DNA from: an uncultured Flavobacteriaceae bacterium
GTDB taxonomy: Bacteria > Bacteroidota > Bacteroidia > Flavobacteriales > Flavobacteriaceae
Direction: 5' to 3'
Length of the DNA: 64,000 nt
Assembly: GCA_947504035.1 (NCBI GenBank)
Contig: CANNGA010000002.1
Location: 62,001 to 126,000, forward strand
Numbering within the stretch: the stretch's first letter is position 1; each line of letters starts with the position of its first letter. Under the pieces are notes generated by a model. The model was not told the DNA's origin, searched no databases, and was given only the letters and a program-made list of their open reading frames with translations. Shown here one piece after another: positions 4,462 through 44,097 of the stretch. The position numbers and the translations under genes are program-made.

Positions 4462-6531
4462 CTAGAGTGACTCGTATTTAAATAGCGGTTTTTTAGTGAT
4501 GTACCATTTAAAGCGTATGCCTATTTCATTAAAAGTAAAACCAGCAGCAGTAGCAGAGGCGATATTACTACGTGTTCCAAAAATGTTAGCAAAGCTGCGT
4601 TCAGAAAAGCGATATCCTAATTTGGCTTGTATGCGATAGGTACTTTGCTTAGGATCATCTTCAATAAATTGATAACCAGTAGCTGCAGTAAGTTCATAAT
4701 ACCAAGCTTTTGGTTTTGTGATGGTTTCATTTTTAATAAGATTTACAAAAACTTCGACAGCATTAAAGCGTTCTGGGCTAAAATAAATAGTAGGAACTTG
4801 GTTTTTAAACGTAATGTATTGGTAGTTTAAGCCTGCCTTTAGAGCTGGTTTAGCAAGTATGTTATAATACAGAGACGTAAATAGTAAATGTCTTGTGTTA
4901 TCATCGCTTTGTGGTGTGTAAAAGTATTGTGTAAACCAACCTAGGTTAATATTCGAACTCAAATTGTAATTGGCATAAAAATTATTCATAACAATTTCGC
5001 GATCAATTAACTCAGCATTGAAATTTTGTATTTCTCTAAGGTAACCAATGTCTAATGTTTGTAGTTTAAAGGGTTTTATATTTAGTGCAATATTGGTGTT
5101 TAATTGTTTAAAACTTCTACCGTTTGCAGTTGCAGCAGTAATACCAGCAAGACCTTTAAGCGCAACACTTGGTCTAAGTTGGTACTTAAATCCTAAACCA
5201 AAATTATGAGATGTAGCGTCGTTATTTGTCACGGCATTGCGCGTGGTTCTATATCCATAATTGGCGAGCCATTTGAATTTTAGAGCGACTGGAATTTCTA
5301 GTGCTGTACTAATTGCGTAGGCTTCATTATCACCATTATCAATTGTATACACTGCTTTAGTGTCTGCAAATGGTGTAAATTGAAGGTCTAGTGTTTTTAT
5401 AAATTGGGAAGCGTCTTTTTGTTTATCATAAAATTTTAACGTGTTGTGAGCCGCTTTATAGGCCGCTTTATAAGAGCTTAATGCTTTTAAAGCGTTAGCT
5501 TTTCCTAGGTTACCATCAAAAGAGGTACTGTCATTTTTTAAAATACGATCGTAGTCTTGAACACTTTCTTTAAAGTTGCTAAGGTAAATGTTTAAGGTTG
5601 CACGTAGTGCTAATACCCAATTGGTGTTAGGATGCGCTTTAACGAGATTAGCAACCTCTTGCTTGGCGTTTTTAAATTTTTTATTCCAAATTAAGGCTTG
5701 TACATAGCGCTCTTTTGTTTGTTTTATGAGTAGCGTATCTTTAAGTGTACTTAATGAGCGATAAGCACTGTCACTAAGTTTTAAAGCCGTTTTTTCCTTG
5801 CCTTTTAAATGATAGACTAAAGCCAAGTGATTTAAGGCCATGGTTTGATCTGTAGGGTTTTGTCCTAGTGCGTCGTAAATTATTTTTGCGCTGTCGTAAC
5901 GGCCCATTATAAGATATAAATTTGCTAAATTTAATAGGGTATCCTTATCGTTGGGAAATAGGTCTAGGTTTTGTTTTAAAAGTGTTTCAGCTTCTGTATA
6001 GTTTTGTGCTTGTTGTTTTTGGTATGCAAAACCAAGATAGATGTATTTTTTAGAGGTTAAAGCATTAGGGTTTTTAGGGGTGACTTCTAAGGCCTTGTCG
6101 ACGTAGATTAACGCATCTTCGTAATGTTTTAAATTAGATAGGGTATTGGCATAACCTAGTAGCGCAGAGAAACTTTTAGGGGTTTCAGCAATGAGTGTTT
6201 TATAATAAGTTTCGGCTTTTGGGTATTGTGTATCCCATAATAGACTTTCGGCGTAATTGAGTTTGACTTCAAAATCATTTGGGTAATCTTTAAGTAAGGC
6301 TGTAAACAAATCTACAGCAACTGTAGAAGCACCAGATAAACCAATAGCTCTACCGTAACATAATCGGGCTGTTTTATTTTGGGGATGTGTTTCTAAAATG
6401 TCTTTAAAAAAAGAAACGGCTTTAGTGTATTGGCCTGTTTCTAAGTATCCAAAACCTGTTGTCATGTCTTGGGAAAATCCAAATAAAGACATGAGACTTA
6501 GTAGAAAAAGTATTTGGTATTTAGCACACAT
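4462..6531 (-). CDS. TPR-repeat outer membrane beta-barrel protein (YaiO/PgaA-like)
   Basis: This 689-residue protein has a signal peptide (cleaved near GFSQ), then about ten tetratricopeptide-like repeats (roughly residues 22-360), then a C-terminal domain of alternating aromatic strands ending in FKWYITKKPLF, typical of a YaiO-type outer-membrane beta-barrel. TPR plus barrel is the layout of polysaccharide exporters such as PgaA and BcsC, in which the repeats guide the polymer to the pore. It is divergent from the STAS-flippase operon, so an exit-channel role for the locus polysaccharide is the best inference. A minus-strand TATATTTG promoter lies at 6564-6571. Confidence 0.8.
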   Translation of the reverse strand: MCAKYQILFLLSLMSLFGFSQDMTTGFGYLETGQYTKAVSFFKDILETHPQNKTARLCYGRAIGLSGASTVAVDLFTALLKDYPNDFEVKLNYAESLLWDTQYPKAETYYKTLIAETPKSFSALLGYANTLSNLKHYEDALIYVDKALEVTPKNPNALTSKKYIYLGFAYQKQQAQNYTEAETLLKQNLDLFPNDKDTLLNLANLYLIMGRYDSAKIIYDALGQNPTDQTMALNHLALVYHLKGKEKTALKLSDSAYRSLSTLKDTLLIKQTKERYVQALIWNKKFKNAKQEVANLVKAHPNTNWVLALRATLNIYLSNFKESVQDYDRILKNDSTSFDGNLGKANALKALSSYKAAYKAAHNTLKFYDKQKDASQFIKTLDLQFTPFADTKAVYTIDNGDNEAYAISTALEIPVALKFKWLANYGYRTTRNAVTNNDATSHNFGLGFKYQLRPSVALKGLAGITAATANGRSFKQLNTNIALNIKPFKLQTLDIGYLREIQNFNAELIDREIVMNNFYANYNLSSNINLGWFTQYFYTPQSDDNTRHLLFTSLYYNILAKPALKAGLNYQYITFKNQVPTIYFSPERFNAVEVFVNLIKNETITKPKAWYYELTAATGYQFIEDDPKQSTYRIQAKLGYRFSERSFANIFGTRSNIASATAAGFTFNEIGIRFKWYITKKPLFKYESL

Positions 6532-6576: not shown

Positions 6577-6606
6577 ATTCGTCTACAGTAAATCGCTTTT
6601 CGTCGA
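6577..6606 (+). promoter_or_regulatory. 21-bp spaced direct repeats (LytTR-like operator) at the STAS-flippase promoter
   Basis: ATTCGTCTA (6577-6585) and TTTCGTCGA (6598-6606) match at 7 of 9 positions and are spaced exactly 21 bp, two helical turns. The 11-mer ATTCGTCTACA recurs exactly upstream of the receiver-GT2 gene at the same distance (57 bp) from its -7 element. LytTR regulators such as AlgR bind direct repeats with this spacing. Here the -7 element itself is imperfect (TAAATTTTG at 6636-6644). Confidence 0.5.
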
Positions 6607-6684
6607 ATTATTCGTACCGTTTCATAGATAATCACTAAATTTTGTAGTCTAAAACCCTCAAATATTAACTTAACCTTTTACATT

Positions 6685-6966
6685 ATGTCATTAAAAATTA
6701 AACAAAAGAAAGATGCCTTCTTGATTCAAGGACGTATCACTACAGCTACAGTGAAACCATTAAAAAAGCATTTAGAATTTTTAATTTGTTATACCAAAAA
6801 ACTAACACTAGATATTGGTGGTGTTAAAGAAATAGATGCACGAGGTATGGCTGTACTTCGAGAATTATATGCTTATGCCATAGCACATAAAAAAAGACTC
6901 TGTTTTGTGGGGTTAGGCTGTAAAGAGTTGCATGACGATATAGAACATTATTTAACAGCTTCTTAG
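6685..6966 (+). CDS. STAS domain protein lacking the phosphorylatable serine
   Basis: The 93 residues make a single STAS fold like anti-sigma factor antagonists: an N-terminal strand pair, then LTLDIGGVKEIDARGMAVLR and a final LCFVGLG strand. In SpoIIAA-type proteins the motif is DSSG with a regulatory serine before the glycine; here it is D51-A-R-G, so it cannot be switched by that phosphorylation. Two STAS-like proteins occur in this window (the other is after pyrB). It is 27 bp upstream of the flippase gene and likely co-transcribed, which suggests a scaffold or regulator of polysaccharide export. The partner is unknown. Confidence 0.8.
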   Translation: MSLKIKQKKDAFLIQGRITTATVKPLKKHLEFLICYTKKLTLDIGGVKEIDARGMAVLRELYAYAIAHKKRLCFVGLGCKELHDDIEHYLTAS

Positions 6967-6993
6967 GCTTATCACTAAAGAAATATTTATTAT

Positions 6994-8262
6994 ATGCAGC
7001 TTATAGCTTTATTAAAGTCTAAAAAAATAGCTCCAGAGCAGATGTTCATGCTAAGCGTCTTGCTTGTAAATGGAGGCAACTATCTATACAATCTTATCCT
7101 AGGACGGTTGTTAGGCCCTTCTGAATTTGCAGATGCAGCGGTACTCATTACGTTTTTGTTAGTATTGTCTTTTGCAGCTATGACTTTCCAGTTAGTTACT
7201 GCAAAATTCTCAGTACTGTTTGAATATGAGATTTTTAGTAGTTTCATTGCAAAGATTTATAAAAATGCCTTTTCAGTAGGCCTTATAATGGGCTTTTTTA
7301 TAGTGCTTTTTGCGAAAGAATTACAAACTATTTTTAATACAGCATCCTCACAAATGTTTGTCGTTTTTGGTTGTGGTGTGCCCTTGTATTTTTTGATGAG
7401 TGTCAACAGAGGTGTGTACCAAGGTACAAAAGATTTTAAGCCTTTAGCGATGACTTATCAAGCAGAAATGTTAAGTCGATTAGGTCTTACATTGGGGCTA
7501 TTATACCTCTTAAAATTGCATTCATCTGTGGTAATTGCGGTAGGTATTTTAACCTCTTTTGTATTTGGACTGCTACCTTTTCGATTTAAAGCTATTCGTT
7601 TTAAAACTCTTAAGTTACCGTCAAAACATTCTAAAACGATTCGGAATTTTTTTGTGATTACTGCATTTTATGAATTAACACAGATTATAATTAACAATAG
7701 TGATATTTTATTAGTAAAGCATTATTTCCAACCTTATGAAGCAGGTTTGTATGCGTCCTTAGCGCTTATAGGTAGAATTGTATATTTTATAGCATGGATG
7801 TTTGTCATGTTGCTTTTGCCTACAGTAGTACAGTTAAAGCGAGATGGTAAAGAAACAGCCTCTATATTGTTTAAATATATAGGATACATTGCAGCGATTT
7901 CAGCAGTGATTATTATAGCATGTTTGTGCTTTCCTAAATTAATCATTAGCTTATTATTTGGTGAACATTATATTGCTATGGCGCCGCTTTTATGGCAGTA
8001 TGCTTTAGCGACATCTATGTTTGCTATCTCTAATATTTTTGCTTATTACTATCTGTCTTTAGACTATTATGTGCCTGTGGTTATTTCTGGACTTTTTGGA
8101 CTTCTACAAGTCGTTTTGGTCCTATTGTTCCATGAGCGTTTAGAACAGGTTGTACATATGCAAATTATAGCGATGCTGCTGTTACTACTACTACAAGTTA
8201 TATTTTTTAAGTTGAACTCTAAAAAAACACTTGAAACAGAACCTAAAGGTACCAAGGTATGA
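6994..8262 (+). CDS. Polysaccharide flippase-like membrane protein (MOP/PST superfamily)
   Basis: The 422-residue protein is strongly hydrophobic with about twelve membrane segments, and resembles Wzx-type oligosaccharide flippases of the MOP superfamily. The opening NYLYNLILGRLLGPSEFADA is typical of these transporters. It would move lipid-linked sugar units across the inner membrane. It follows the STAS gene by 27 bp in one operon under the 21-bp repeat promoter. No polymerase (Wzy) is recognisable beside it, but the GT-C-like protein at 12.4-15.5 kb could be the periplasmic partner. Substrate is unknown. Confidence 0.85.
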   Translation: MQLIALLKSKKIAPEQMFMLSVLLVNGGNYLYNLILGRLLGPSEFADAAVLITFLLVLSFAAMTFQLVTAKFSVLFEYEIFSSFIAKIYKNAFSVGLIMGFFIVLFAKELQTIFNTASSQMFVVFGCGVPLYFLMSVNRGVYQGTKDFKPLAMTYQAEMLSRLGLTLGLLYLLKLHSSVVIAVGILTSFVFGLLPFRFKAIRFKTLKLPSKHSKTIRNFFVITAFYELTQIIINNSDILLVKHYFQPYEAGLYASLALIGRIVYFIAWMFVMLLLPTVVQLKRDGKETASILFKYIGYIAAISAVIIIACLCFPKLIISLLFGEHYIAMAPLLWQYALATSMFAISNIFAYYYLSLDYYVPVVISGLFGLLQVVLVLLFHERLEQVVHMQIIAMLLLLLLQVIFFKLNSKKTLETEPKGTKV

Positions 8263-8323
8263 GGTATGAAGGCGTAGCACATTTTCAAATAAACACACTT
8301 TATGTGACGTATACGCTTAATGC

Positions 8324-8353
8324 ACTCGCCTAAATACGACCACAGCTCGTCTA
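8324..8353 (+). promoter_or_regulatory. 21-bp spaced direct repeats (LytTR-like operator) upstream of the GT4 gene
   Basis: ACTCGCCTA (8324-8332) and GCTCGTCTA (8345-8353) match at 7 of 9 positions with a spacing of exactly 21 bp. The second half lies in ACAGCTCGT (8342-8350), 8 of 9 to the LytTR consensus. An AT-rich -7-like stretch (TAATAATTTA, 8383-8392) sits at nearly the same distance as in the STAS promoter. No exact TAnnTTTG is present here. Confidence 0.45.
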
Positions 8354-8429
8354 TAGGAACAGGTAACTTATCTAATAGCCTCTAATAATTTATATAAATA
8401 GAAGAACTTTATATTATAAATCACACGAT

Positions 8430-9659
8430 ATGAAACTAGCCATTGTAACCGCATACCCGCCAAGCAAAGTCACTTTAAATGAATATGCTTATCATTTGGT
8501 GAAACATTTTAGGCAAAAAACAGCTATATCTGAATTGATATTATTAACAGATACAACTAGCGAGGCCAAAGATCTTAATTTTAAAACCTCTGGGTGTAAA
8601 ATTACAGTAAAAGAATGTTGGACTTTTAATAGCTATACAAATCTTTATAAAGTGACAAAAGCTATAAATGCTGTAAAACCAGATGCTGTATTGTTTAATC
8701 TTCAGTTTATGAAATTTGGAGATAAAAAAATAGCAGCGGCCTTAGGCTTAATGTTGCCTTTGGTGTGTAAGCTAAAAAAAATACCAAATATTGTATTATT
8801 ACACAACATCATGGAGGAAGTAGATCTTGGTAATGCAGGGTTTACAACGAATAAAATCATGCAAAAATTATATGGTTTTATAGGAAGCACACTAACACGG
8901 CTATTGTTACAAGCAGATACCGTAGCGGTAACGATGCAAAAATATGTAGACATACTAAGTAAAAAATACAAGGTGAACAACGTAAAATTGATACCCCATG
9001 GTACTTTTGAAGTTTTAGAAGAACCAGCGTATAATACCGTACAAAAGCCATTTAAAATCATGACTTTTGGCAAGTTTGGGACTTATAAAAAAGTAGAACG
9101 TATGATCGATGCCGTTGAAATGATTCGAGAACTTTCAGATATACCTATGGAAATTATAATTGCAGGTACGGACAACCCTAATACGCCAGGTTATTTAGAA
9201 GGGGTTAAAACCAGCTATAAACATGTAAAAGGCTTATCATTTACAGGCTATGTAGCCGAAGCAGATGTTCCAAAGCTTTTTCAAGATAGCGCCGTGGTTG
9301 TATTTCCTTATACATCAACAACGGGAAGTTCTGGTGTGTTGCATCAGGCTGGAAGCTACGGCAAGGCTGTGGTCATGCCAGATTTAGGCGACTTAGCTCT
9401 ATTAGTTCAGGATGAAGGTTATAAAGGTGAGTTTTTCGAACCTTCAAGTACCAGTAGTTTAGCAGTGGCTATTCAGAAAATTCTAGAAGATGACGCTTAT
9501 AGGGTTACATTAGAAAAAGCAAATTACAAAGCAGCCACAGCGTATCCAATGTCTAAAATTGCCGAACTGTACCTCATTGCTTTTGATTGTATTCTGTCGA
9601 AGCACGAGAACTATAAACTATCATCGACAAAAGAGGTTATTAGTGAAAGTCGGGTTTAA
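8430..9659 (+). CDS. Glycosyltransferase family 4
   Basis: The 409-residue protein has the two-domain GT-B form of GT4 enzymes. The C-terminal donor domain shows KIMTFGKFGTYKKVERMI, then VVVFPYTSTTGSSGVLHQAGSYGKAVV, where the usual catalytic EX7E region is recognisable only in part. It probably transfers a nucleotide-activated hexose in the cytoplasm during assembly of the locus glycan. It has its own 167-bp upstream region with LytTR-like direct repeats, so it seems to be a separate transcript that is co-regulated with the flippase operon. The next gene converges on it from the opposite strand. Confidence 0.87.
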   Translation: MKLAIVTAYPPSKVTLNEYAYHLVKHFRQKTAISELILLTDTTSEAKDLNFKTSGCKITVKECWTFNSYTNLYKVTKAINAVKPDAVLFNLQFMKFGDKKIAAALGLMLPLVCKLKKIPNIVLLHNIMEEVDLGNAGFTTNKIMQKLYGFIGSTLTRLLLQADTVAVTMQKYVDILSKKYKVNNVKLIPHGTFEVLEEPAYNTVQKPFKIMTFGKFGTYKKVERMIDAVEMIRELSDIPMEIIIAGTDNPNTPGYLEGVKTSYKHVKGLSFTGYVAEADVPKLFQDSAVVVFPYTSTTGSSGVLHQAGSYGKAVVMPDLGDLALLVQDEGYKGEFFEPSSTSSLAVAIQKILEDDAYRVTLEKANYKAATAYPMSKIAELYLIAFDCILSKHENYKLSSTKEVISESRV

Positions 9660-9718
9660 AATGAAAAAATAAAGACAAGAGCATAGAAGCCGCATGTTCG
9701 TTGTATTGCGTAACACAT

Positions 9719-11236
9719 TTATTCTTTAGAGATATATTTGAAGGCAGGCTTAGTCTCTCCGTTTTGGTCTATGAAACCAAAATGCTCTTGAGTCTGTTTT
9801 CGCCAAGGAAGTCGTCCAACGACTTCTTTTGGCACTTTTGTGAAGTCGTAAAGCGTCCAAGACATGAATTGTATGTGGTGTTTTGCAAAAATATGCTGAC
9901 ATAACTTATGATAATTGGCTTGATCTTGGGCAGTACTGCCAAAAGGATGCCAAAACCCTTTGTTGGAAGACAAACCAAATTCTGTGATTACAAGCGTTTT
10001 ATGAGGCATCTTTTTTTGAAGCATCGCATAGGTGTCTTGCAAGGCTTCTAAATTTTCATAATAGTGAAAAGATACAAAATCGATCTTATTTTTAAGATAG
10101 TGTGCACTTTTAGCGTTAGACCAACCAATGGTAACCGGGTGTACTGTGTCGATAGATTTTACAAGATCAATTATCGTGTTTAACCAAGCAAGTACTTTAG
10201 AGGTGCCTCGAGACTCAAAATCTAAATTGGGTTCATTTTTAATATCCCAAGCCAAAAGCGCTTCATGCGTTTTTAAGGCATTTACAAGAGTTGCAGCGTG
10301 ATGACGGTTTAGGGTATAATTTAGAACTTCATAATCTCCAAAAAAATCAAATAAAGTTACGATAACTTTTAGAGCTTTGGCCTGTGCCAAATCTAATACA
10401 GTTGTGAGTTTTTCTAATTTTTCGGGTGTAACATTAGCTTTTCCAAAATCCTCATAAGGTACAAATATGCGAATGGTATTTAGTCCTGCTTTTTTTATGA
10501 TTTCAAAATCTTTGGCTATACGGTTGGGGTTAAATGCTGTACCGTACATGTCCCAAGGTGTCGCTTGAGGGTAATAATTAATGCCTTTAATATTCTTTAC
10601 AGCTGTTAAAGCAGGAGCGATAGTATCGGGGACGTTTTCATGAGCTGTTTTGCGCAAATGTCTTATCCGCCAAAATCCGTCTTCGAGAAGTAATATGGCC
10701 TTATAGGTAGCTAATGACTTGACATCATACACAAGCGTATCGCGTTTAAATACACGTTGGTATTCTGCAACATTAGAGTCGGTTAAGACTGCCAGTTGGC
10801 CATCTTCACTAAAAAAATCTAGATTGATATTGTGCGCTAATGTTGTTGCATCTATAGAAATGCGATCTGCTTTATTTTGAGTAACAACATCGAAAATAGC
10901 TGTTCTTGCGTGTTTGGTGTAATAATCTTTTATGCCATTTAAGGTATTGGTTTTATAGGCCACATGTTTTACATACCAAGCATCTAGATAATCGGTTTCT
11001 ATGGCTTTTAATGTTTGCATGTCCATGGGTCTACCTTCATTTTTTAAAGGAGCCCATTCCAATTGTGGGAGATACTGGTCTATTTTTTTAATTTCTGTAT
11101 GCAGCATTTTACTGCGATCTGCACCCGTATTTAAAAAGCAAAGTACTTTACTAATGCCAACAAATACTATAACGATAACGTTTATGTAAGATAATACCAA
11201 AATACTACGTAATATGTTTTTATTAATCTTTACCAT
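9719..11236 (-). CDS. Membrane-anchored cellulase-fold glycoside hydrolase (clan GH-A)
   Basis: An N-terminal membrane segment (about residues 11-33) anchors the 505-residue protein, and a region at about 70-195 looks like an NTF2-type domain. The catalytic barrel follows (about 215-500). AWDIKNEPNLDF carries the putative acid/base Glu335 and LVITEFGLSS the nucleophile Glu419, the arrangement of clan GH-A enzymes such as GH5. It should cleave or trim a beta-glycan in the periplasm. It is the last gene of a tightly packed operon (7-bp overlap with the gene before it), so it probably edits or releases the locus polysaccharide, as cellulases do in bcs operons. Confidence 0.82.
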   Translation of the reverse strand: MVKINKNILRSILVLSYINVIVIVFVGISKVLCFLNTGADRSKMLHTEIKKIDQYLPQLEWAPLKNEGRPMDMQTLKAIETDYLDAWYVKHVAYKTNTLNGIKDYYTKHARTAIFDVVTQNKADRISIDATTLAHNINLDFFSEDGQLAVLTDSNVAEYQRVFKRDTLVYDVKSLATYKAILLLEDGFWRIRHLRKTAHENVPDTIAPALTAVKNIKGINYYPQATPWDMYGTAFNPNRIAKDFEIIKKAGLNTIRIFVPYEDFGKANVTPEKLEKLTTVLDLAQAKALKVIVTLFDFFGDYEVLNYTLNRHHAATLVNALKTHEALLAWDIKNEPNLDFESRGTSKVLAWLNTIIDLVKSIDTVHPVTIGWSNAKSAHYLKNKIDFVSFHYYENLEALQDTYAMLQKKMPHKTLVITEFGLSSNKGFWHPFGSTAQDQANYHKLCQHIFAKHHIQFMSWTLYDFTKVPKEVVGRLPWRKQTQEHFGFIDQNGETKPAFKYISKE

Positions 11237-12447
11237 AATGCAACTGCGTTTAATGTTTTGGTAATGCTAGCAGCATGTACCTTAAACGTATAATTACCCT
11301 TTGGAAATTGATTGGGGTTTAATTTAAAATTCACATACCCTTCAGAAGTGCCTTTGCGAAGGGTTTCTATTAAAATAGCATTTCTGTACACGTCAAGGGT
11401 TACTTCTAAGCCATCAGGAATCATTTGGTGCATAAAGCTAAAGAGTGGACCGACTGTAATTTTTCGATTGTCTGTAGAACGTGTTAGATCAAAATCTGAA
11501 ATTACAGCTTTATAATTCAAAACAAGGGCATCACTTTCTGCCATACCATCAACAAAGGCTTTTACAGACCAGGTGTCTTCATGATTTGGATGAATCATTT
11601 TAGCAGTAGCAACACCATCTAAAGTGGTTCCAGATGTTTTTAAAATGTAGTTTGCTTTTGTTTTTATAAAGAATTCTACATAAGTACCATCGCTTGTAGT
11701 ATTACCGTATGCATCTTTAATCGTTGATGTTGTAAATGTGGTAATTTGATTGCCGTCGGCAAAATGATGATGCCTGTGATACCTAATTTTAAAATCATAG
11801 GGTGGGGCGGGCATAACATTAACATCATATTCCTTTGAATTAAAAGCATAGCACGATGAGCTAATTAAAATACGCCCCGTCTTTAAAGTAGAAAATATAT
11901 TTTTATAGCTAATGCTATGTTGTATCGTTACGGTATCTATACGTTGGGTATTTAAAAATTGCCGTTTAACTGCGACTTTAGTCCCATCTGTAAGGGGATT
12001 GTCGTATGCGTCTGTTGGTATTGCAACTAGCATGGTATAATCATTAGCACCAGCACTGATACTTGGAGGACCTAGGTAGGTTTGTATAAGGTCTACAGCT
12101 GGTGCAGATACAATTGTAAGCTGGCCATTTAAAGGTGTTTTAGCAGTGCGTAAACTCCAATATATCACACCTGTTTTAGAGGCTATGTGTTGTGGTATAG
12201 AGTATTGTATGCGGTTCTTTATTGCTGTAGGTGTTAAAAGTGTTGCTCCAAAACTATTGCTGACGTACAATTGGGGTTGCGTGTTATTTTTGGTCGTAAA
12301 TTCTAAGGTTACAGGTGTACCTGCGGTAAAGACCTTTTGGGTTGTGATAAGTTTAAAATCAGCTTCAAAATTAAAGGCATAAGCAGGCATAAAGATAACA
12401 GAGATCCAATACCAAATAAAAACGATATGTAGGTGCTGTGTTTGCAT
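11230..12447 (-). CDS. Secreted Ig-like domain protein of the polysaccharide locus
   Basis: The 405-residue protein begins with a hydrophobic signal segment ending near PAYAFN. The rest is beta-rich, with several Ig-like modules: phrases such as DAYDNPLTDGTKVAV and DAYGNTTSDGTYVEF recall invasin/Big_1-type domains. No catalytic motif is visible. Its start codon shares one base with the stop of the GT-C-like gene upstream and its end overlaps the glycosidase start by 7 bases, so the three are translationally coupled. A periplasmic scaffold or glycan-binding role is inferred only from context. Confidence 0.7.
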   Translation of the reverse strand: MQTQHLHIVFIWYWISVIFMPAYAFNFEADFKLITTQKVFTAGTPVTLEFTTKNNTQPQLYVSNSFGATLLTPTAIKNRIQYSIPQHIASKTGVIYWSLRTAKTPLNGQLTIVSAPAVDLIQTYLGPPSISAGANDYTMLVAIPTDAYDNPLTDGTKVAVKRQFLNTQRIDTVTIQHSISYKNIFSTLKTGRILISSSCYAFNSKEYDVNVMPAPPYDFKIRYHRHHHFADGNQITTFTTSTIKDAYGNTTSDGTYVEFFIKTKANYILKTSGTTLDGVATAKMIHPNHEDTWSVKAFVDGMAESDALVLNYKAVISDFDLTRSTDNRKITVGPLFSFMHQMIPDGLEVTLDVYRNAILIETLRKGTSEGYVNFKLNPNQFPKGNYTFKVHAASITKTLNAVALW

Positions 12448-15400
12448 TAATCGGGATGTCCTAAATAGGCATTAGTTTCAATTTTAATATAACTGTATAC
12501 AGGATGGGTAATGGCTTGTAATTGAGAATAGGTTTGATCTTTAATTCTATTAGGAATTACTTTATCAGCAATATCGCTGTTAGGCAATCCATTCACAAAA
12601 CAGTTTGTCATGTCTTCATTTATAATTGAGACGCTGTCTTTTTCAAATTTGTATTCAAAATACTGTTGACGTTGTTGTCTAATACCTTCTTTTACAAAAA
12701 CATGATCTACCCAGACCAGTGTTTTAGAACTGTCAAAATACGAAATGAGTAGCTGCGGAATTGTAATTTCTTTTAAGCCCGAATTGAATAACTGCCCAGA
12801 GAAACCTTCCTTAGAAAATTTTAAATGGCTCAAAACCGATTTCTTATACAGATCAGACCCAGAGACATTCCCCGCGGCTTGAAGGTTGAATTTGGTGGGT
12901 TGCTCTTCAAATTCAACAGGTGTAAACTCATCAGGATTAAATGTTTTAGGGATAGAATCCTGAGTTTTTGACCAAGCAATGCCTTCAAAATTAATTCTAA
13001 AAGCACTTACCTCTTTGGGCATGAGTTTATGTTTTATTTGATATTTTGCATTATAGGTTGCTAGGGTTTTATTGGCATCGTTGTACAGCGTAGCTTTTAA
13101 AACCACATCGGCGGGAACATTATCTACATTTTGTATTTCACCTATAAGCGCATAACTTTTTTGATATTTTACAAGTTTGGCGTAAAGTATTTCTAAAACA
13201 GGTTGTTTTAGTACATCTTCATGATGGGTTTGTTCTGTAGAAATGCGGCGTCTTCCTTGGTTGAAATAAGCGGTGGTATTACCTGCATAAAATTGATCTG
13301 GCGGTAAGTCTAAGTTAATATCTTCTGGGTTAACATACCATTTTCCATTTACCTTAGCCAAGGTACGGTAATCTGTTTTTGAGATTTTTTCTAAAGGTGT
13401 AATCCATTTTGTAGAAACTACAACTGCGGCGAGCGTATCCGACTGTGCTGTTATTTTTGTCGTTATGGCATCTAGTTTTGCATAGGAACTTAAGAGGCCA
13501 TCTGTTACAGATATTTCTAGCATGTACTGTGCCAAGGGCAAATTACTTTTGGGGTTAATAAGGCTATGTGCTTTTTCATAGCGCTTAAAATCTATGGCGT
13601 CATAATAAGCTAAAATAGCATTGTCTGGCGAATGATGGCTGTCGTTTTTAATATAGAATAAATGAATGCCGTAACAGACAATTACAGCAACAAATAGGGA
13701 CCAAACATGAGTGATTCTCAATACATTTCTGTTGAAGACGGTGTAGTTGTTTTGAAATTGTAAATAATCGGGAATGGTTTTACGTCCTGTTTTTAAGGCT
13801 CTTATCCACATGAGTTGTATGTTGAGAATAAAGGCAATTAATACAGTTGTAAAGGGCATGATACCCCATAATATTTTTTGCCATCTCCCTACATCTTCTT
13901 TAGGCAGGATAGATGATAATGGTGGTACATTGAGCTTTTCCCAAACCTGAATCCCATTTTCTAGTTGGCGCAAGCGTTGCCAACCGCAGAAGTACAAGAT
14001 AGGATCGTAAAATTTATCATTAGAGAAAATATATTTGAAATTGTATTTTTCGGGGGTGGTTAAAAACTGTTGTAGCGAGCCAATACCTTCTACACCCTTA
14101 AACTTAGAGTTCTCTAAACGTTCTATTGGTCGCGTTGTGAGTTCTGGTAAACGTCTTGCAGAATGGTAATTTCCATCTACACTTAAAGCTTTGGTTTGAG
14201 CGGCAAGCCATGCCATCTGGTCTCCAAAGCCCAGAGTCATATACCGCCAATGGTCATGTTGATCTTGATTTAAAAAATTAACAATAGGAAGCATTTTAAT
14301 TTTTTGAGGCTGCGATGGTCTAAAATAATTTAGGCTCATCGTAAAAATGGTCATAAATAGAAAGAGTCCAGCAAAGAGCCCTCCGATAATGCGGTGGTAA
14401 ATGGCGCCTAACTTAGCTTGTATTAGTGTTTTTAAATCGCCTTCAGCCAAACGGTATACAAACTCTCCAAATAACGGAATAGACATGATAGATGCCCATA
14501 ATGTAAAGCGGTCTAAGGTTAAAATGTTAAAAGCTGTTTCGCCTAAAAATAACCTAGGAATAGGTGTTGTACCACCAGTGCCTAAAACCGTTAAAATAGT
14601 TATAGAAAAACCAAAAAAAAGATAACGTTTGCTGTAATATCTGTAAAAGATGTAAGGGAGCAATATTAATAGTACACCCCAAGGTATTAAAAAGAAGACT
14701 AAACCCGAAGATGTAATTTCCATAAAGTTATCACGAGAGCCATGCGGTATTGGCACTTGAGTGATTGGATTTTTTTTAGAATTAATCCAATAGGGAAGAA
14801 TACAGGTTATAATGATGACTAGAGATAATAGGCCAAAGGTTACAATACGTTTAAACAATTTGAAAAAACTTGCAAGAAAGATTTTAAATGTAACCTCTTT
14901 CATGGTGTTTACCTGTGTTCGAGATACATCCATAATAACGGTACCAATTAAAGGAAAGATAAAAAAGACCATTCCAAAAATAGGAGTTACATGGTGGGAT
15001 GTTACGGTTACGGAAATTAAAGAGAGGCTTGTAAAGAGGTAGCGAAGGCGTCCTGTTTTTAGCCATAAATAGATTTCTGGTAAGGAGTGCATTAATATAG
15101 AGATACCAATAATACTGGGCAATTGTCCAAATACATGTAAGGTTTCTACAAAAGATGAGGATAGAACTGCTAATATAGCGGCATAGCCAGCTACGGTTCT
15201 ACTACTGGTAATTAATAAAGAGAAACGATAAGCTCCCGTAATAAAAAGTACAATAGCAATAAGCGCTACCGTAAACATGCCAAATTTTAAGCCACCTATA
15301 AAGGAAAGCGCCGCAATAGATTGATGGACCAATGGCGGATAACTCATAACAGTAAAACCGGTATACCATTTGTAGTTCCAAGGCTCAAACCAACTACCCG

Positions 15401-15536
15401 CATAATGTTCTGCAAAAAAGAGATGAATTAAAGCATCATAGGTTGTCTCTAAAGTGAAAAATATAGACGTACCATGAAACACAATACCTATAAGTAAGGC
15501 TAAAATAAGATGCTTATTTGATGTTGCAGGATTCAA
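12447..15536 (-). CDS. GT-C-like polytopic membrane protein (PTPS-related family) with large periplasmic domain
   Basis: This is a 1029-residue protein. The first ~410 residues hold many membrane spans with TTYDALIHLFFAEHY and a YPPLVHQS loop, the pattern of the 6-pyruvoyl-tetrahydropterin-synthase-related membrane family, whose members resemble GT-C glycosyltransferases; D34 and H38 are candidate catalytic residues in the first periplasmic loop. Two more spans lie near residues 560 and 620, then a long soluble tail with an NTF2-like part (about 640-750). GT-C enzymes use polyprenyl-phosphate sugars, which the divergent receiver-GT2 protein could supply. It starts the three-gene minus-strand operon. 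The family name comes from motif memory, not a search. Confidence 0.75.
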   Translation of the reverse strand: MNPATSNKHLILALLIGIVFHGTSIFFTLETTYDALIHLFFAEHYAGSWFEPWNYKWYTGFTVMSYPPLVHQSIAALSFIGGLKFGMFTVALIAIVLFITGAYRFSLLITSSRTVAGYAAILAVLSSSFVETLHVFGQLPSIIGISILMHSLPEIYLWLKTGRLRYLFTSLSLISVTVTSHHVTPIFGMVFFIFPLIGTVIMDVSRTQVNTMKEVTFKIFLASFFKLFKRIVTFGLLSLVIIITCILPYWINSKKNPITQVPIPHGSRDNFMEITSSGLVFFLIPWGVLLILLPYIFYRYYSKRYLFFGFSITILTVLGTGGTTPIPRLFLGETAFNILTLDRFTLWASIMSIPLFGEFVYRLAEGDLKTLIQAKLGAIYHRIIGGLFAGLFLFMTIFTMSLNYFRPSQPQKIKMLPIVNFLNQDQHDHWRYMTLGFGDQMAWLAAQTKALSVDGNYHSARRLPELTTRPIERLENSKFKGVEGIGSLQQFLTTPEKYNFKYIFSNDKFYDPILYFCGWQRLRQLENGIQVWEKLNVPPLSSILPKEDVGRWQKILWGIMPFTTVLIAFILNIQLMWIRALKTGRKTIPDYLQFQNNYTVFNRNVLRITHVWSLFVAVIVCYGIHLFYIKNDSHHSPDNAILAYYDAIDFKRYEKAHSLINPKSNLPLAQYMLEISVTDGLLSSYAKLDAITTKITAQSDTLAAVVVSTKWITPLEKISKTDYRTLAKVNGKWYVNPEDINLDLPPDQFYAGNTTAYFNQGRRRISTEQTHHEDVLKQPVLEILYAKLVKYQKSYALIGEIQNVDNVPADVVLKATLYNDANKTLATYNAKYQIKHKLMPKEVSAFRINFEGIAWSKTQDSIPKTFNPDEFTPVEFEEQPTKFNLQAAGNVSGSDLYKKSVLSHLKFSKEGFSGQLFNSGLKEITIPQLLISYFDSSKTLVWVDHVFVKEGIRQQRQQYFEYKFEKDSVSIINEDMTNCFVNGLPNSDIADKVIPNRIKDQTYSQLQAITHPVYSYIKIETNAYLGHPD

Positions 15537-15625
15537 GTGTAGAATTTTTCAACTTTATGTAAAGATATAACTGTAATTATAGATTTACACTATACTCTAA
15601 AATTTTTATTTACCTGTTAAAAATT

Positions 15626-15639
15626 ACCATTCGTCTACA
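15626..15639 (+). promoter_or_regulatory. LytTR-like element upstream of the receiver-GT2 gene
   Basis: ACCATTCGT (15626-15634) matches the LytTR consensus at 8 of 9 positions and contains the 11-mer ATTCGTCTACA (15629-15639) shared exactly with the STAS promoter. A degenerate copy, ATTTACCTG, lies 21 bp upstream at 15608. The 11-mer ends 57 bp before the end of the -7 element, the same distance as in the STAS promoter. Confidence 0.45.
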
Positions 15640-15688
15640 CTTTAGCATATTTTTAACTAAAATATTATTTTTCCTACAAATATTGTGA

Positions 15689-15696
15689 TATATTTG
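15689..15696 (+). promoter_or_regulatory. -7 promoter element for the receiver-GT2 gene
   Basis: TATATTTG is an exact TAnnTTTG match, 30 bp upstream of the start codon. Confidence 0.55.
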
Positions 15697-15726: not shown

Positions 15727-16932
15727 ATGAAAATTTTAGCCATCGACGACCAACAGCTCGTGCTGTTACCTTTGCAAAAAGGATTAAGCAATTTAGGATA
15801 TAACGTTAAAATAGAAATGGATGCCAGACAGGGCATTTCCCAATTCGATAAATTTCAGCCAGATTTGGTTATCGTAGATATTAATATGCCCATTGTATCA
15901 GGTCTAGAGGTGGTAAAATACATTAGAAATTCGCAAGACAAAGATACACCTATTATGGTATTGTCGGGTAATACCACAGATGAAACCATTACAGAAGGTT
16001 TCGATTTGGGGATTAACGATTATATGAAAAAACCATTAAGTCTCAATGAAATTTTTGCAAGGGTTAAGCGCCTTATAGGTGTACCAGAAGTACAAACCCA
16101 TACACCTTCTCTTTTAAGTACTACTGTAATACAACAACGTTGTGTTGGTGTTGTTATTCCATGTTATAATGAAGAAGACCGTTTGTTAAGTGATGAATTT
16201 ATAGAATTTATCAATAGAAATTCAGGGTATCATTTATGTTTTGTGAATGATGGCAGTAAAGATAATACACTTGGTGTTTTACATGATTTAAGTAAAGGAA
16301 GAGAAGATTATATAACAGTATACGACTGTGAAAAAAACGGCGGAAAAGCAGAAGCTGTGAGATTAGGGATGTTACATATGGCTGGTAAACCTGATTTAGA
16401 TTACATCGGCTTTTTAGATGCAGATTTATCAACAGACCTTAAAGATTTTGATGATTTAGTGTCCACGATAGAACATTCAGAATTTAAAATTGTAAGTGGA
16501 TCTCGTATCAATAGAATGGGGGCAGATATTACTAAAGAGTCGGCCAGAAAAGTGATAAGCATGTCTATTAACTATATCATTAGAAAAATTTTAGGCATGG
16601 AATTTAAAGACACACAGTGTGGTGCTAAAATTTTTAGTAAAGACGTGATTCATTTGGCTTTTGATAAGAAGTTCGTGACTCAATGGATTTTTGATGTTGA
16701 AATTTTTAAACGCATGTCTGCCTATTTTGGAAGACAACAAGCTATAAGTTACATCTGTGAACAACCTTTAAAACGATGGATTCATGCCGATGGCTCTAAG
16801 CTGTCAATGAAAGATTCTATAAAAATCATTATGCAACTTGGACAAATAGCTTGGGTCTATCGAGATAAGAAAAAAAAAGAATTTGTTAATGGTACTCAGG
16901 TAGAACTGTCATCGGTGCATGAAAGTTTATAA
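15727..16932 (+). CDS. Response-regulator receiver fused to polyprenyl-phosphate-type GT2 glycosyltransferase
   Basis: Two domains are clear in 401 residues. Residues 1-118 are a complete receiver: acidic pair D7/D8, phosphoacceptor D51 (VIVDINMP), S80 and K101 followed by proline. From about 140, a GT2 domain resembles dolichol-phosphate mannose synthase: VVIPCYNEED, VNDGSKDNT (173-181), the metal-binding DAD at 231-233 and a DTQCGAKIF motif. Enzymes of this type make lipid-phosphate sugars at the membrane, yet no membrane span is seen here. The fusion implies that phosphorylation by a histidine kinase controls the enzyme directly, without DNA binding. No kinase gene is nearby. It has its own promoter and LytTR-like element. 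Confidence 0.9.
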   Translation: MKILAIDDQQLVLLPLQKGLSNLGYNVKIEMDARQGISQFDKFQPDLVIVDINMPIVSGLEVVKYIRNSQDKDTPIMVLSGNTTDETITEGFDLGINDYMKKPLSLNEIFARVKRLIGVPEVQTHTPSLLSTTVIQQRCVGVVIPCYNEEDRLLSDEFIEFINRNSGYHLCFVNDGSKDNTLGVLHDLSKGREDYITVYDCEKNGGKAEAVRLGMLHMAGKPDLDYIGFLDADLSTDLKDFDDLVSTIEHSEFKIVSGSRINRMGADITKESARKVISMSINYIIRKILGMEFKDTQCGAKIFSKDVIHLAFDKKFVTQWIFDVEIFKRMSAYFGRQQAISYICEQPLKRWIHADGSKLSMKDSIKIIMQLGQIAWVYRDKKKKEFVNGTQVELSSVHESL

Positions 16933-34354: not shown

Positions 34355-36274
34355 TTATTCAATTTGAATAATAATAAACTCTGTTCTTCGGTTTAATTGG
34401 TGGGCTTCATCTTCACAATTTGCACCATCTTGACAACCATTGGTTAAACGGCGTTCTCCATACCCTTTATGTTCTGTAATACGACTAGGAGCTATGCCTT
34501 TAGATATAATATATTCATAGGTCGCATTTGCTCTGTCTATAGATAATTTATCGTTATAGGACAAGGTCCCTCTAGAATCGGTATGCGATTCTATTTTAAT
34601 GATCATATCTGGATACGTATTAGCCATTAAGTTTACAATTTTGTCTAATTCTAAAGCGGCATCTTCTCTAATGTTATGTTTATTGTAGTCAAAATAGATG
34701 GTGTTTAATTCTGCTAAAACAACGACTTTTTGTACTGGATTTAGTATCAGGTTAGCTACAATTTCAGACTCAATACTAGAAATGTTTTTAGATGAAAAGT
34801 TTCTATAGTCATCGATATACTTTTCTTGACTTGCTACAATTTTATAATCTTGATTTCTATCTATATTGATCTCGTAGAAGCCTTCTTTATCAGTAACCAT
34901 ATAGGCGATTTTATTGTCATCTCCATCAAACAAATTGATAATAGAATTAGGTACTGGTTTAGAATTTATGGCATCAACAACCTGTCCTCTTACACGTAAT
35001 AGGGGTTTGCGAAAAAATTCATAAATATCATCGTCTCCGCGTCCTCCACGGCGGTTAGACGAAAAATAGCCTGTAACCCCATCTTTATTCATCGTAAAAC
35101 AAAAATCATCTTTTTCTGAATTAACAGGAACCCCTAAGTTTACGACATCTGTAATGGTATTGGAGTCGTCTGCAACGGTACCAAAAATATCGAGTAAACC
35201 TAAGCCTAAATGGCCATCTGAGGAGAAAAATAAGATGCCTTCATTGTTGATAAATGGTGTGCCTTCTGCACCTTTGGTATTAACTATAGCACCCATATTT
35301 ACGGGGGTACCCAGAGAACCGTCTTGGTGAAGATCTACATAATAGATATCAGAACCTCCTTGACCACCAGGCATGTCTGAAGAAAAATACAAGCGGGTAT
35401 TGTCTTTATTTAAGGCAGGGTGTTGCGTAGAGTAGTTTTTGCTATTAATGGAGAGCGGTTCTACATTAGTCCATAAACTGTCTACAAGGGTGGCCTTGTA
35501 AATATTAACAGAGCTAATTCCTTTTTTATCATTTTCTTGTCCATATTTATTTGACGCATTTCTTGAAAAATACATGGTTTTTCCATCTTTAGAAATGGTG
35601 ACAGGACCATCGTGATAAATCGAATTGATATCTCCTTTTAATTTAGAGGTATGGGTAACACGCTTTTTAGCATCTTTTTCTGTAACGTATACGTCTAAAA
35701 AAGGTTGTTCATTCCAGCCATAAAGGCGTTTTATAGCAACACCTTCGTCTCGAGATGAGGCAAAATATACTTTGCCATCATGTTCTATAGCGCCAAAATC
35801 ACTAAATTTTGAATTGATGCGTGTACGCTTAAGAAAGTATTGCTTCTTAGCACTAAAGACATGTGCCATAAAGTCCAAATCTTTTTCAAAACGTTCGGTA
35901 TTAGCGACACCTCCAGAATCTTTAAAACGTTGCATCCAAATGCGAGATTCTTTGTATTTTTTGGTACCTCTTAAGGCTTGTGCGTAACTGTAATAATAGT
36001 CTATAGGTACATTTTTATCTTCTACAGCTCTTTTGTAATAGCGCGCAGCAGCAGCAGGATTTCTTAAATAGGCATAGCAATCACCAACCCTTCGTGTGGC
36101 GTAATTTTTATTGTAGTTATTCCTTATTAAATCCTTATAAACTTCGGCAGCCTTAACAAAAGAGAATTTATTGAATAATGTATCTGCTCTTTTTTGTTTT
36201 CCAGGTTGTGCCATTGCTACGCATGCAAGAGCTAGAAAGAGTGATGTTACTATGGACGTTCTAAATGTCATCAT
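34355..36274 (-). CDS. OmpA-family envelope protein with TPR and PD40 repeats (copy 1)
   Basis: The 639-residue protein is a paralogue of the next gene with the same order: signal peptide (to about VAMAQ), TPR-like part, PD40 propeller (GGQGGSDIYYV, GGRGDDDIYEF), regulatory-like beta domain, and C-terminal OmpA domain (IYFDYNKHNIRED, then LNRRTEFIII). It lies 16 bp after the PorP/SprF gene, so it is in the adhesin operon and probably anchors the secretion or adhesin complex to peptidoglycan. Copy 2 follows after 190 bp and may have its own promoter. Confidence 0.9.
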   Translation of the reverse strand: MMTFRTSIVTSLFLALACVAMAQPGKQKRADTLFNKFSFVKAAEVYKDLIRNNYNKNYATRRVGDCYAYLRNPAAAARYYKRAVEDKNVPIDYYYSYAQALRGTKKYKESRIWMQRFKDSGGVANTERFEKDLDFMAHVFSAKKQYFLKRTRINSKFSDFGAIEHDGKVYFASSRDEGVAIKRLYGWNEQPFLDVYVTEKDAKKRVTHTSKLKGDINSIYHDGPVTISKDGKTMYFSRNASNKYGQENDKKGISSVNIYKATLVDSLWTNVEPLSINSKNYSTQHPALNKDNTRLYFSSDMPGGQGGSDIYYVDLHQDGSLGTPVNMGAIVNTKGAEGTPFINNEGILFFSSDGHLGLGLLDIFGTVADDSNTITDVVNLGVPVNSEKDDFCFTMNKDGVTGYFSSNRRGGRGDDDIYEFFRKPLLRVRGQVVDAINSKPVPNSIINLFDGDDNKIAYMVTDKEGFYEINIDRNQDYKIVASQEKYIDDYRNFSSKNISSIESEIVANLILNPVQKVVVLAELNTIYFDYNKHNIREDAALELDKIVNLMANTYPDMIIKIESHTDSRGTLSYNDKLSIDRANATYEYIISKGIAPSRITEHKGYGERRLTNGCQDGANCEDEAHQLNRRTEFIIIQIE

Positions 36275-36290
36275 AAAAAAATGCAGTTGT

Positions 36291-37211
36291 CTAGAAATAT
36301 CTAGGTGATTTAAGTTTTGAGCTTAAGAATTTGAATTCATATATAAGTAATACTTCATGAGTACCACTTGTGAATGCTCTAATTTCGGATGTTGGTTTTT
36401 CATAGGAGTATCCAATACGTAACTGGCGGGACACTTGTAAATCTGCTATGATTCCCCATGCGGCCGTTGCTTCATTAATTCTATAGGATCCGCCAAGCCA
36501 TATTTTTTCGTTGTATAAGAAATTGGCTGTTAGATCTAAGGATGCAGGCGCACCATTTGTTGCTTTTAGTAATGTAGAAGGTTTAAATTTGAAGGCCTCA
36601 CTAAGATCGAATACAGCACCAACTATAGCGTAATAACTAAGGCGTTCTAAAGCTTCAAACCCTTCTTCTGTATTTCTATTGGTGTTTAAAACTCTAGGGG
36701 CAGATGCACCAGCATAAAAACGATTGGTATGGTAGTAAAGTCCTAAACCAATGTTAGGTGTCCATCTGTTGGCTATACCGCGTATCAAAGGATCAAAACT
36801 TTCAGACGCTCTAAAGTCTTCATCTAAACTATAGCTTGTAAGGCCACCCTTTACACCAAAGGCTAATTTGCCTGTTCTTCCTGTTGGTATTGTATATGAG
36901 AAATCGCCGTACAAATAGGTGAAATTTTCAGGGCCTAAATCATCTTCTATAAAGGTAAATCCAAGGCCAATGCGATCATTTCTTAAAGGTGAATGTACCG
37001 AAAGGGTTTGTGTTACAGGACCACCATCAAAACCAACCCATTGACTGCGATGTAATCCAATAACGCTTAATGCTTCTCTACTTCCAGCATAGGCAGGATT
37101 AATAGCGATGGTGTTATACATGTACTGGGTAAATTGTGGCAATTGTTGCGCCATTCCAACCGTACAACTGAATAACGCAAAAGCAATTATGTAATGTTTT
37201 ATAAGTTTCAT
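36291..37211 (-). CDS. PorP/SprF-type outer membrane protein
   Basis: The 306 residues start with a signal peptide (cleaved near GMAQ) followed by QLPQFTQYMYNTIAINPAYAGS, the signature of the PorP/SprF family. The remainder is a beta-barrel with alternating strands. SprF is required for secretion and surface attachment of the type B adhesin SprB in Flavobacterium johnsoniae. This gene directly follows a large type B adhesin gene (10 bp gap), so it is most likely the dedicated partner of that adhesin. Confidence 0.95.
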   Translation of the reverse strand: MKLIKHYIIAFALFSCTVGMAQQLPQFTQYMYNTIAINPAYAGSREALSVIGLHRSQWVGFDGGPVTQTLSVHSPLRNDRIGLGFTFIEDDLGPENFTYLYGDFSYTIPTGRTGKLAFGVKGGLTSYSLDEDFRASESFDPLIRGIANRWTPNIGLGLYYHTNRFYAGASAPRVLNTNRNTEEGFEALERLSYYAIVGAVFDLSEAFKFKPSTLLKATNGAPASLDLTANFLYNEKIWLGGSYRINEATAAWGIIADLQVSRQLRIGYSYEKPTSEIRAFTSGTHEVLLIYEFKFLSSKLKSPRYF

Positions 37212-37221
37212 AGGTTATGTT

Positions 37222-43510: not shown

Positions 43511-43999
43511 ATGAAAAAGCAATTAACCATTATTAGACATGCAAAATCATCATGGGAACACGATGTTATAGATCATGAAAGACCATTAAAGGAGCGAGGG
43601 ATTGCAGATGCAAATTTGATGGCTAAAGCCCTTCGTAAATTAAATTTAAAACCAGATGCGATACAAATAAGCGATGCGAAACGTACAACATCTACAGCGG
43701 CACTTATTTTACCAGAATTAGAAGTGTCTAATGCAGAGATTAATTACGAGCATAAGCTTTATGATTTTTCGGGAGAATTGCTTTTAGAGGTGATTAAAGG
43801 CTGTGATACTAATGTGGCGCATCTCATGATTTTTGGTCATAACCATGCCATTACTCATTTTGTAAATACATTTGGAGACCGCTATATCGAGAATGTCCCA
43901 ACCTGTGGTGTGGTTCAATTGGAATTTCAAATAGCGGAATGGTCTAAAATAACAAAAGGACGTACCATTAAAACACTCTTTCCAAGAGATTTAAAGTAA
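43511..43999 (+). CDS. SixA-like histidine phosphatase
   Basis: The 162-residue protein belongs to the histidine phosphatase superfamily: TIIRHAKSSWEHD carries the catalytic RH, KERGIADANLMAKAL follows, and a second catalytic His lies in MIFGHNHAITHF. The small size and RHAKS motif match SixA, which dephosphorylates phosphohistidine in two-component phosphorelays. It is followed after about 120 bp by ppk1, so a role in phosphate or polyphosphate signalling is possible but unproven. Confidence 0.88.
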   Translation: MKKQLTIIRHAKSSWEHDVIDHERPLKERGIADANLMAKALRKLNLKPDAIQISDAKRTTSTAALILPELEVSNAEINYEHKLYDFSGELLLEVIKGCDTNVAHLMIFGHNHAITHFVNTFGDRYIENVPTCGVVQLEFQIAEWSKITKGRTIKTLFPRDLK

Positions 44000-44089
44000 G
44001 AAAAACATGTGTGTAATACGCCGTATCATGCCCTCTTAAAATTGCCAAATTTTTAATTGTATTTTAAATTTTTTTCACACGAAATAGAA

Positions 44090-44097
44090 TATATTTG
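44090..44097 (+). promoter_or_regulatory. -7 promoter element for ppk1-ppx
   Basis: TATATTTG matches TAnnTTTG, 22 bp upstream of the chosen ppk1 start codon. The longer reading frame begins upstream of it. Confidence 0.55.

Follow-up and report, generated by a model that had tools for sequence, protein, structure and literature searches.

The polysaccharide locus and its repeat arrays

The DNA analyzed here (the window) is a stretch of 64,000 nucleotides from contig CANNGA010000002.1 of an uncultured Flavobacteriaceae bacterium, and it contains a polysaccharide locus in which three transcription units are preceded by arrays of short direct repeats. The locus comprises, in order, a TPR protein gene on the minus strand, a STAS-domain gene with a flippase gene on the plus strand, a group 1 glycosyltransferase gene (GT1) on the plus strand, three genes on the minus strand (GH5-like, 405 amino acids and 1029 amino acids, the last called O1029) and a plus-strand gene for a receiver domain fused to a family 2 glycosyltransferase (RR-GT2; Table 1). 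The nearest relatives of RR-GT2 come from an uncultured Flavobacteriaceae bacterium (92 percent) and from Algibacter, Hyunsoonleella and Flavivirga (79-81 percent).

A first-pass annotation of this sequence had described paired sites exactly 21 bp apart at 6577/6598 and 8324/8345, had added a site at 15629 with a degenerate copy 21 bp upstream, and had proposed one LytTR-type direct-repeat regulon for the locus. All the letters it named are in place, and the pattern YTCGYCKA-N13-YTCGYCKA matches the window twice, against a mean of 0.00 over 100 dinucleotide shuffles (none in any of them). The site at 15629 belongs with the others; the first box of its array, at 15608, scores only -4.7 bits, and relatives have a box in this place. 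All boxes were scored with one single-box matrix built from RR-GT2 promoters only, so the weak boxes of the other promoters are underscored. Those at 6598 and 15608 are credible from orthologous promoters rather than from the window itself; at the place of the 6598 box, loci L013-L016 carry YTCRYCGAA and loci L017, L019 and L020 carry TTGAACGAA or CTGAACGAA. The GT1 array also has a third box, at 8366, which the first-pass annotation had missed; the GT1 promoters of genomes G098, G117 and G147 have three consecutive boxes.

Table 1. Genes and repeat boxes of the polysaccharide locus (window coordinates; box scores from the RR-GT2 matrix)
Feature	Position	Strand	Remarks
TPR protein	4462..6531	-	divergent from STAS; promoter in its own direction without array (negative control)
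STAS-operon array, strong box ATTCGTCTACAG	6577..6588	+	18.3 bits; orthologous boxes exist
STAS-operon array, second box TTTCGTCGAATT	6598..6609	+	21 bp downstream; -0.6 bits (weak)
TTTG, Bacteroidetes-type -7 region	6641..6644	+	57 bp past the end of the 11-mer; distance conserved
STAS-domain protein, first gene of the unit	6685..6966	+	Pfam
Wzx-like polysaccharide flippase (PF13440)	6994..8262	+	domain match
GT1 array, box ACTCGCCTAAAT	8324..8335	+	4.1 bits
GT1 array, box GCTCGTCTATAG	8345..8356	+	10.3 bits
GT1 array, third, weak box ACTTATCTAATA	8366..8377	+	0.6 bits alone; one-mismatch pair at C2:70346
Group 1 glycosyltransferase (GT1)	8430..9659	+	domain match
GH5-like, 405-amino-acid and 1029-amino-acid (O1029) genes	9719..15536	-	divergent from RR-GT2; own direction without array
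RR-GT2 array, degenerate first box ATTTACCTGTTA	15608..15619	+	-4.7 bits; relatives have ATTATCTACAG here
RR-GT2 array, strong box ATTCGTCTACAC	15629..15640	+	18.7 bits; conserved
RR-GT2 array, weak third box TTTTAACTAAAA	15651..15662	+	0.3 bits; relatives have GTTAAGCTAAAT, 22 bp on
-7 element TATATTTG before RR-GT2	15689..15696	+	sequence
Receiver domain fused to family 2 glycosyltransferase (RR-GT2)	15727..16932	+	domain match

Across the 4.23-Mb genome, the same strict pattern has three matches, against none for the reversed-pattern control, and the third (C5:220584, on a different contig from the window) sits ahead of the receiver-H-NOX operon described below. The shuffle statistic for the window is post hoc because the pattern was derived from these same sites, and the test was therefore moved to relatives. 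Allowing at most one mismatch, 12 relatives gave 13 hits in nine genomes, 10 of them in the linked locus (see below) and 3 elsewhere. Two more exact pairs in our genome, of the form YTCRTCKA-N13-YTCRTCKA (C3:253189 and C14:56570), lie inside open reading frames and were rejected. Only the strict arrays mark the polysaccharide locus and its putative regulator operon.

Other sites named in the first pass fared less well. The word ATTCGTCTACA is indeed present at 6577 and 15629, but a third copy lies within coding sequence at 42239 on the minus strand (genome-wide, 6 matches against 1 for the control). The supposed LytTR site at 2550 reaches only -3.1 bits in its best register, with no partner seen, and the weaker pair proposed at 43070/43091 before an adhesin operon dissolves on scoring (4.0 bits at 43073 and -20.6 bits 21 bp further on). 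Elsewhere in the window, positions 34355-42531 on the minus strand hold a likely operon for a 1769-amino-acid HYR-repeat protein that carries a type IX signal, for PorP/SprF and for an OmpA-like protein, and positions 43511-46183 on the plus strand hold a polyphosphate kinase gene preceded by one for a histidine phosphatase family protein.

Spacing and conservation in relatives

The motif recurs in orthologous promoters, where arrays of two or three boxes with the consensus ATTCRTCKACA repeat with a period of 21-22 bp. The footprint of the RR-GT2 promoter was drawn from 80 named relatives, which came to 77 distinct promoters once L141 (below the box threshold) was left out and duplicates were merged. 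It consists of three boxes, ATTATCTACAG, CCATTCRTCKACAC and GTTAAGCTAAAT, whose key C lies at -11, +10 and +32, giving steps of 21 and 22 bp; positions +19 to +22 are almost unconserved. Among the 80 named loci, the best spacing was 21 bp at 71 of 80 RR-GT2 promoters (the training set of the matrix), 62 of 74 GT1 promoters and 31 of 55 STAS promoters, in line with one direct-repeat regulon for the locus, and at none of the divergent promoters (TPR 0/59, O1029 0/80). Stretches upstream of the flippase gave 21 bp in 13 of 72 cases, which may reach the STAS promoter or come from loci without STAS. In this count, tblastn matches beginning past query residue 25 were skipped (one STAS, one flippase), and short upstream stretches were kept in the totals (two STAS, one flippase).

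The promoters of H-NOX operons, which are independent of the matrix, behave in the same way: of the 31 spacings compared, 21 bp came out best in 23 of 30 loci, with three of the remainder lacking a pair and four peaking at 13, 16 or 22 bp. The spectrum of intergenic spacings is sharper still. In 20 stretches, with the regions upstream of RR-GT2-like genes excluded, we counted 33 pairs at 21 bp, and none of the other spacings between 10 and 40 bp exceeded 2. Of the 33, 17 stand upstream of receiver-H-NOX operons and 8 upstream of GT1.

A few related arrangements were seen alongside. STAS paralogues elsewhere (several of L022-L041; in our own genome G000:C1:241307, which is L033) share another, conserved upstream block, CRTCGATGAAATTGACA followed by TTCAACT and TTTGTCGA about 21 bp apart, which by eye might be the operator of a second LytTR protein. 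In L191/L192 (G094) and L195/L196 (G071), a gene of 92-97 amino acids beside a receiver gene is also preceded by an array, and L197 (G070) combines two RR-GT2 genes and an additional GT1-like gene in a single locus, which suggests duplication of regulated units.

Distance to the -7 element

The first-pass annotation had measured 57 bp from the box to the end of the TTTG, a distance that is exact at 6577 and 15629 and recurs in relatives. Leaving out promoters with a pair score below 10 kept 10 of 14 promoters for ADH (the gene that follows the candidate regulator, below), 12 of 14 for STAS, 14 of 16 for GT1, 12 of 16 for RR-GT2 and all 14 for receiver-H-NOX. From the end of the strongest box to the end of the TTTG, the distance was 56-57 bp in 41 of these 62 promoters (STAS 11/12, GT1 12/14, RR-GT2 9/12, ADH 8/10, receiver-H-NOX 1/14). 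Two RR-GT2 and two ADH promoters had it one box further up (77-78 bp), as did three receiver-H-NOX promoters at 76-77 bp; most receiver-H-NOX promoters have no TTTG at these distances, and in the window's own GT1 promoter no TTTG was found at the expected distance. The 57-bp distance is a rule that goes beyond a coincidence of two sites. With the -7 element positioned as in other Bacteroidetes, the boxes would have their centres at about -44, -65 and -86, where those of an activator are expected.

A candidate reader on another contig

The best candidate for the regulator, which the first-pass annotation had not identified, is encoded outside the window. The operon on contig C5 that follows the third exact pair encodes a receiver, an H-NOX protein, a PAS kinase, a protein with FIST and FIST_C domains (both above cut-off), a histidine kinase, an HPt-like protein and a LytTR response regulator. 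The last is the only protein of the operon with a recognised DNA-binding domain: its receiver (PF00072, 63.6 bits) and LytTR domain (PF04397, 75.9 bits) both score above the curated cut-offs, and its best NCBIfam model is BtsR, at 119.8 bits, below the cut-off of 246 bits. The product of the gene after it, ADH, is secreted and carries a type IX sorting domain; the promoter of this gene has a weaker array. Because the C5 operon is preceded by the same array, it is probably self-regulated.

The C5 H-NOX (HNOB domain, 135.9 bits; cut-off 25.5) is the only one in the genome and a predicted haem-based binder of nitric oxide (NO). Its closest solved relative, over the full length and with an E value of 4e-92, is PDB 6BDD, the H-NOX of Kordia algicida (PMC7356049). 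Searches for GGDEF proteins at E 0.001 gave no match in this genome, which is 99.2 percent complete, and the control was positive in 8 of 14 genomes. With no GGDEF match and one H-NOX, a cyclic-di-GMP output is therefore unlikely.

The genome has 13 LytTR matches. Within 4 kb on either side of the 12 other LytTR genes, we found four pairs of at least 13 bits, all inside open reading frames, and otherwise nothing above 8.5 bits; these genes were accordingly rejected as autoregulated readers. One of the four pairs (L277, 3851, minus strand) is the receiver motif IDYLLKPIDE read antisense, which mimics a 21-bp pair and gives rise to false positives in pattern scans.

Co-occurrence, linkage and natural experiments

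Among 149 Flavobacteriaceae genomes, our own included, RR-GT2 (counted at 58 percent identity or more, which kept relatives of at most 42 percent, such as those in G139 and G143, out of the Fisher tests) occurs in 32, nearly one per genus, H-NOX in 56 and the LytTR orthologue (at least 56 percent identity; the next matches listed reach at most 45) in 61. The LytTR orthologue is present in 31 of the 32 RR-GT2 genomes and in 30 of the 117 others (Fisher p 6e-14; these values ignore kinship). LytTR and H-NOX share 53 genomes (p 7e-28), and RR-GT2 and H-NOX share 29. The one genome with RR-GT2 and no LytTR orthologue is G132, in which the H-NOX operon is cut by the contig end. In 25 of the 31 genomes, LytTR lies within 30 kb of RR-GT2 (in G150, measured from the second RR-GT2 copy); in five others the two genes are on separate contigs, and G126 has 2.3 Mb between them.

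Ten linked loci, picked because H-NOX and RR-GT2 share a contig (some of the fetched loci were hand-chosen), place the H-NOX/LytTR operon near the polysaccharide locus in one gene order. There are departures: the separate FIST gene and the second kinase are missing in G019 and G062, the ADH match in G019 and the STAS match in G040, and gene insertion or duplication is seen in G098 and G070. The genome of the window carries the two parts on two contigs, well inside both, so that the locus has apparently been split there.

Several genomes act as natural experiments. In G022, LytTR lies on another contig, with arrays before its receiver-LytTR pair and before a flippase-like gene nearby. In the stretch of H-NOX and polysaccharide genes that it left behind, no intergenic pair reaches 13 bits. 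The locus of G149 lacks the receiver, H-NOX and kinases, and its promoters have only weak pairs (6.2-8.5 bits); one array remains, before the ADH gene elsewhere in the genome. G016, G141 and G155 have no H-NOX match, yet LytTR and an array are kept. These cases suggest that the array goes with LytTR rather than with H-NOX.

Proposed mechanism and alternatives

Our preferred explanation, to which we give a probability of roughly 0.8, is that the sites are shared activator operators read by the C5 LytTR protein as the output of a gas-responsive phosphorelay. Two or three ATTCRTCKACA-like direct repeats, 21 to 22 bp apart, would present themselves on one helix face and act as activator operators whose distance to the -7 element downstream is fixed. 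Kinase activity would change when H-NOX, with the FIST protein as a possible second sensor, detects the gas; phosphate would travel via the receiver and HPt to LytTR; and LytTR would bind the arrays and activate the STAS-flippase, GT1, RR-GT2 and ADH units together, plus its own operon. Not all of these parts are equally firm. The arrays, their spacing, position and conservation, the linkage and the co-occurrence are observed, and binding, phosphotransfer, the sign of regulation and the gas signal are predictions. That there is a real shared operator seems to us almost beyond doubt, and that the C5 LytTR protein reads it appears very probable; the odds that the signal is NO or another haem ligand are about even. 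A less likely extension is that HPt phosphorylates both LytTR and the receiver of RR-GT2, in which case a relay free of cyclic-di-GMP would set exopolysaccharide production at two levels, with the enzyme switched directly.

A number of observations weigh against this explanation. Two upstream components are imperfect matches: the FIST protein, in a nearly full-length match, scores far under the NosP equivalog cut-off (65.6 against 450 bits), and the HPt-like protein has 23.4 bits against a PF01627 gathering threshold of 24.6, with HKLKH in its sequence. Many of the relatives are close kin, about half of the intergenic 21-bp pairs precede receiver-H-NOX operons, and STAS promoters prefer 21 bp in little more than half of the cases. 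Because LytTR and H-NOX are inherited together, their co-occurrence does not by itself reveal which of the two matters. Arrays and orthologues also part company in places: the LytTR operons of G013 and G020 have no pair of at least 12 bits in the stretch fetched, G097 has copies only behind LytTR, G109 has only one, downstream, and G075 (L288) has a strong array before a decayed-looking operon with no LytTR orthologue found. The decay in L288 takes the form of an in-frame stop in the H-NOX match and a truncated FIST. The copies in G097 (L291; 10444, 10682 and 10920) are three identical two-box units at intervals of 238 bp, within a long intergenic stretch that follows LytTR. Nor did the loose motif (at most two mismatches) point to a genome-wide regulon: the genome has 72+99 hits against 95+97 for the control, so the clustering at surface-glycan genes that the first pass proposed to look for is not supported, and in 12 relatives it is rarer than the control (92 against 193). 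One of the refuting conditions set in the first pass, that the spaced motif be no more frequent than in coding or shuffled sequence, applies to the loose form; the strict form is commoner than its control (3 against 0).

Coding sequence contributes its share of adverse cases. One pair in the window, at 35995 on the plus strand with 21-bp spacing, scores 17.9 bits and so outdoes the GT1 array (14.4 bits); it runs antisense within an open reading frame (34355-36274, minus strand) and is probably due to chance. The coding sequence of the 20 stretches has 6 pairs at 21 bp and at most 4 at other spacings, and a 169-kb control set, made up of the window, the loci of the 12 other LytTR genes and a further two, has 8 pairs at 21 bp, 7 of them coding, and at most 2 at others. 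This mild lean should not be read as signal, and the intergenic excess is far larger in far less sequence (62.9 kb of intergenic against 515.5 kb of coding). Could AT-rich sequence and coding bias nevertheless have produced all the spaced TTCRTC words? The lean to 21 bp in genes, the lack of excess for the loose pattern, the antisense IDYLLKPIDE pair and the two further exact YTCRTCKA pairs in open reading frames are what chance would yield, but the strict pattern, the conservation across genera and the fixed distance to the -7 element are not, and for the arrays themselves the intergenic spectrum (33 against at most 2) already refutes it; we leave chance a negligible share.

It is also improbable, though less so, that the repeats are read by an activator outside the LytTR family or constitute a special promoter element. 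The fixed 57-bp distance would fit a promoter element too, but box number and strength vary in a way that a core promoter would not, the divergent promoters are free of arrays, and an 8-bp core with a 13-bp spacer matches published LytTR sites (PMC4847170, PMC11347149). Somewhat more weight, still small, goes to the possibility that the arrays are LytTR operators read by another of the genome's LytTR proteins, with the array before H-NOX reflecting shared regulation only. That the genome has 13 LytTR matches, that the G075 array stands without a detected orthologue and that several orthologue operons are free of arrays would all fit. Against it, the other 12 LytTR genes have no pair of at least 13 bits outside open reading frames, the array follows the C5-type LytTR in G022, and the co-occurrence in 31 of 32 genomes comes with close linkage.

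Comparison with known systems

LytTR sites are described as direct or inverse repeats of 9-11 nucleotides with 11-13 nucleotides between them (PMC4847170), a format into which the arrays fit, with an 8-bp core, N13 and a period of 21-22 bp. As proposed, the system joins an operator of known type to sensory input and targets that are new for it. Among the nearest parallels are RcoM1 and CoxC, LytTR regulators that respond to CO (PMC11347149), which share with it three direct repeats, a LytTR reader and a link to a diatomic gas sensor; the RcoM1 operator has TTCNNGCA triplets at 12-13 bp, and its repeats start with TTC, as do ours, where the spacer is 13 bp. Unlike here, their haem or MHYT sensor is fused to LytTR and CO oxidation is controlled, whereas our locus would have separate sensors ahead of a presumed phosphorelay and surface polysaccharide as its target; CoxC is, moreover, a repressor, and our arrays lie at activator-like positions (PMC11347149).

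The resemblance to AlgR of Pseudomonas aeruginosa noted in the first pass is a fair one: AlgR is a LytTR regulator of exopolysaccharide genes, and CCATTCGTC, found at 15627 and in many relatives, is one base off its consensus CCGTTCGTC (PMC4064291), which L117 carries as such. AlgR also uses CCGTTCATC, and its sites, unlike those here, need not be direct repeats 12 bp apart and are accompanied by other signalling genes (PMC4064291). LytTR systems of Bacteroides (PMC6193735) likewise come from Bacteroidetes and have direct repeats (11 bp, at 11 bp from each other) just upstream of promoters and presumed autoregulation; they differ in being membrane-bound with inhibitors, in their shorter spacer and in the absence of a gas sensor from the account given there. 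BtsR and YpdB of E. coli combine a receiver with LytTR as the C5 protein does, and YpdB binds a spaced direct repeat, but they work with LytS-type kinases on transporter targets (PMC4847170, PMC5552118).

On the sensory side, the C5 operon is like the H-NOX/NosP relays, in which H-NOX and/or FIST/NosP proteins stand beside histidine kinases and phosphotransfer proteins and control biofilms (PMC6769237, PMC8738867). Those described there end mostly in cyclic-di-GMP enzymes or in a quorum-sensing relay, whereas the operon here ends in a LytTR regulator, in a genome without a GGDEF match. Where PMC6769237 touches on LytTR, in its available portions, it does so only for AgrA, which is hit by NO through its cysteines. 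In the accessible parts of the open-licence PMC literature, we found nothing joining H-NOX relays to LytTR operators, no LytTR operator described in Flavobacteriaceae and no description of the genetic context of the Kordia algicida H-NOX.

Without a GGDEF match in the genome, the standard explanation of biofilm control by H-NOX, through cyclic-di-GMP, can hardly apply here, and the array names a specific alternative output for H-NOX together with specific target promoters. The C5 operon also offers a genetic context for the family of the structurally solved Kordia algicida H-NOX. More broadly, the arrangement suggests how marine flavobacteria could switch slime making without the messenger used by other bacteria and, if true, control of polysaccharide production in many genera would become testable through one regulator, one operator and a few promoters.

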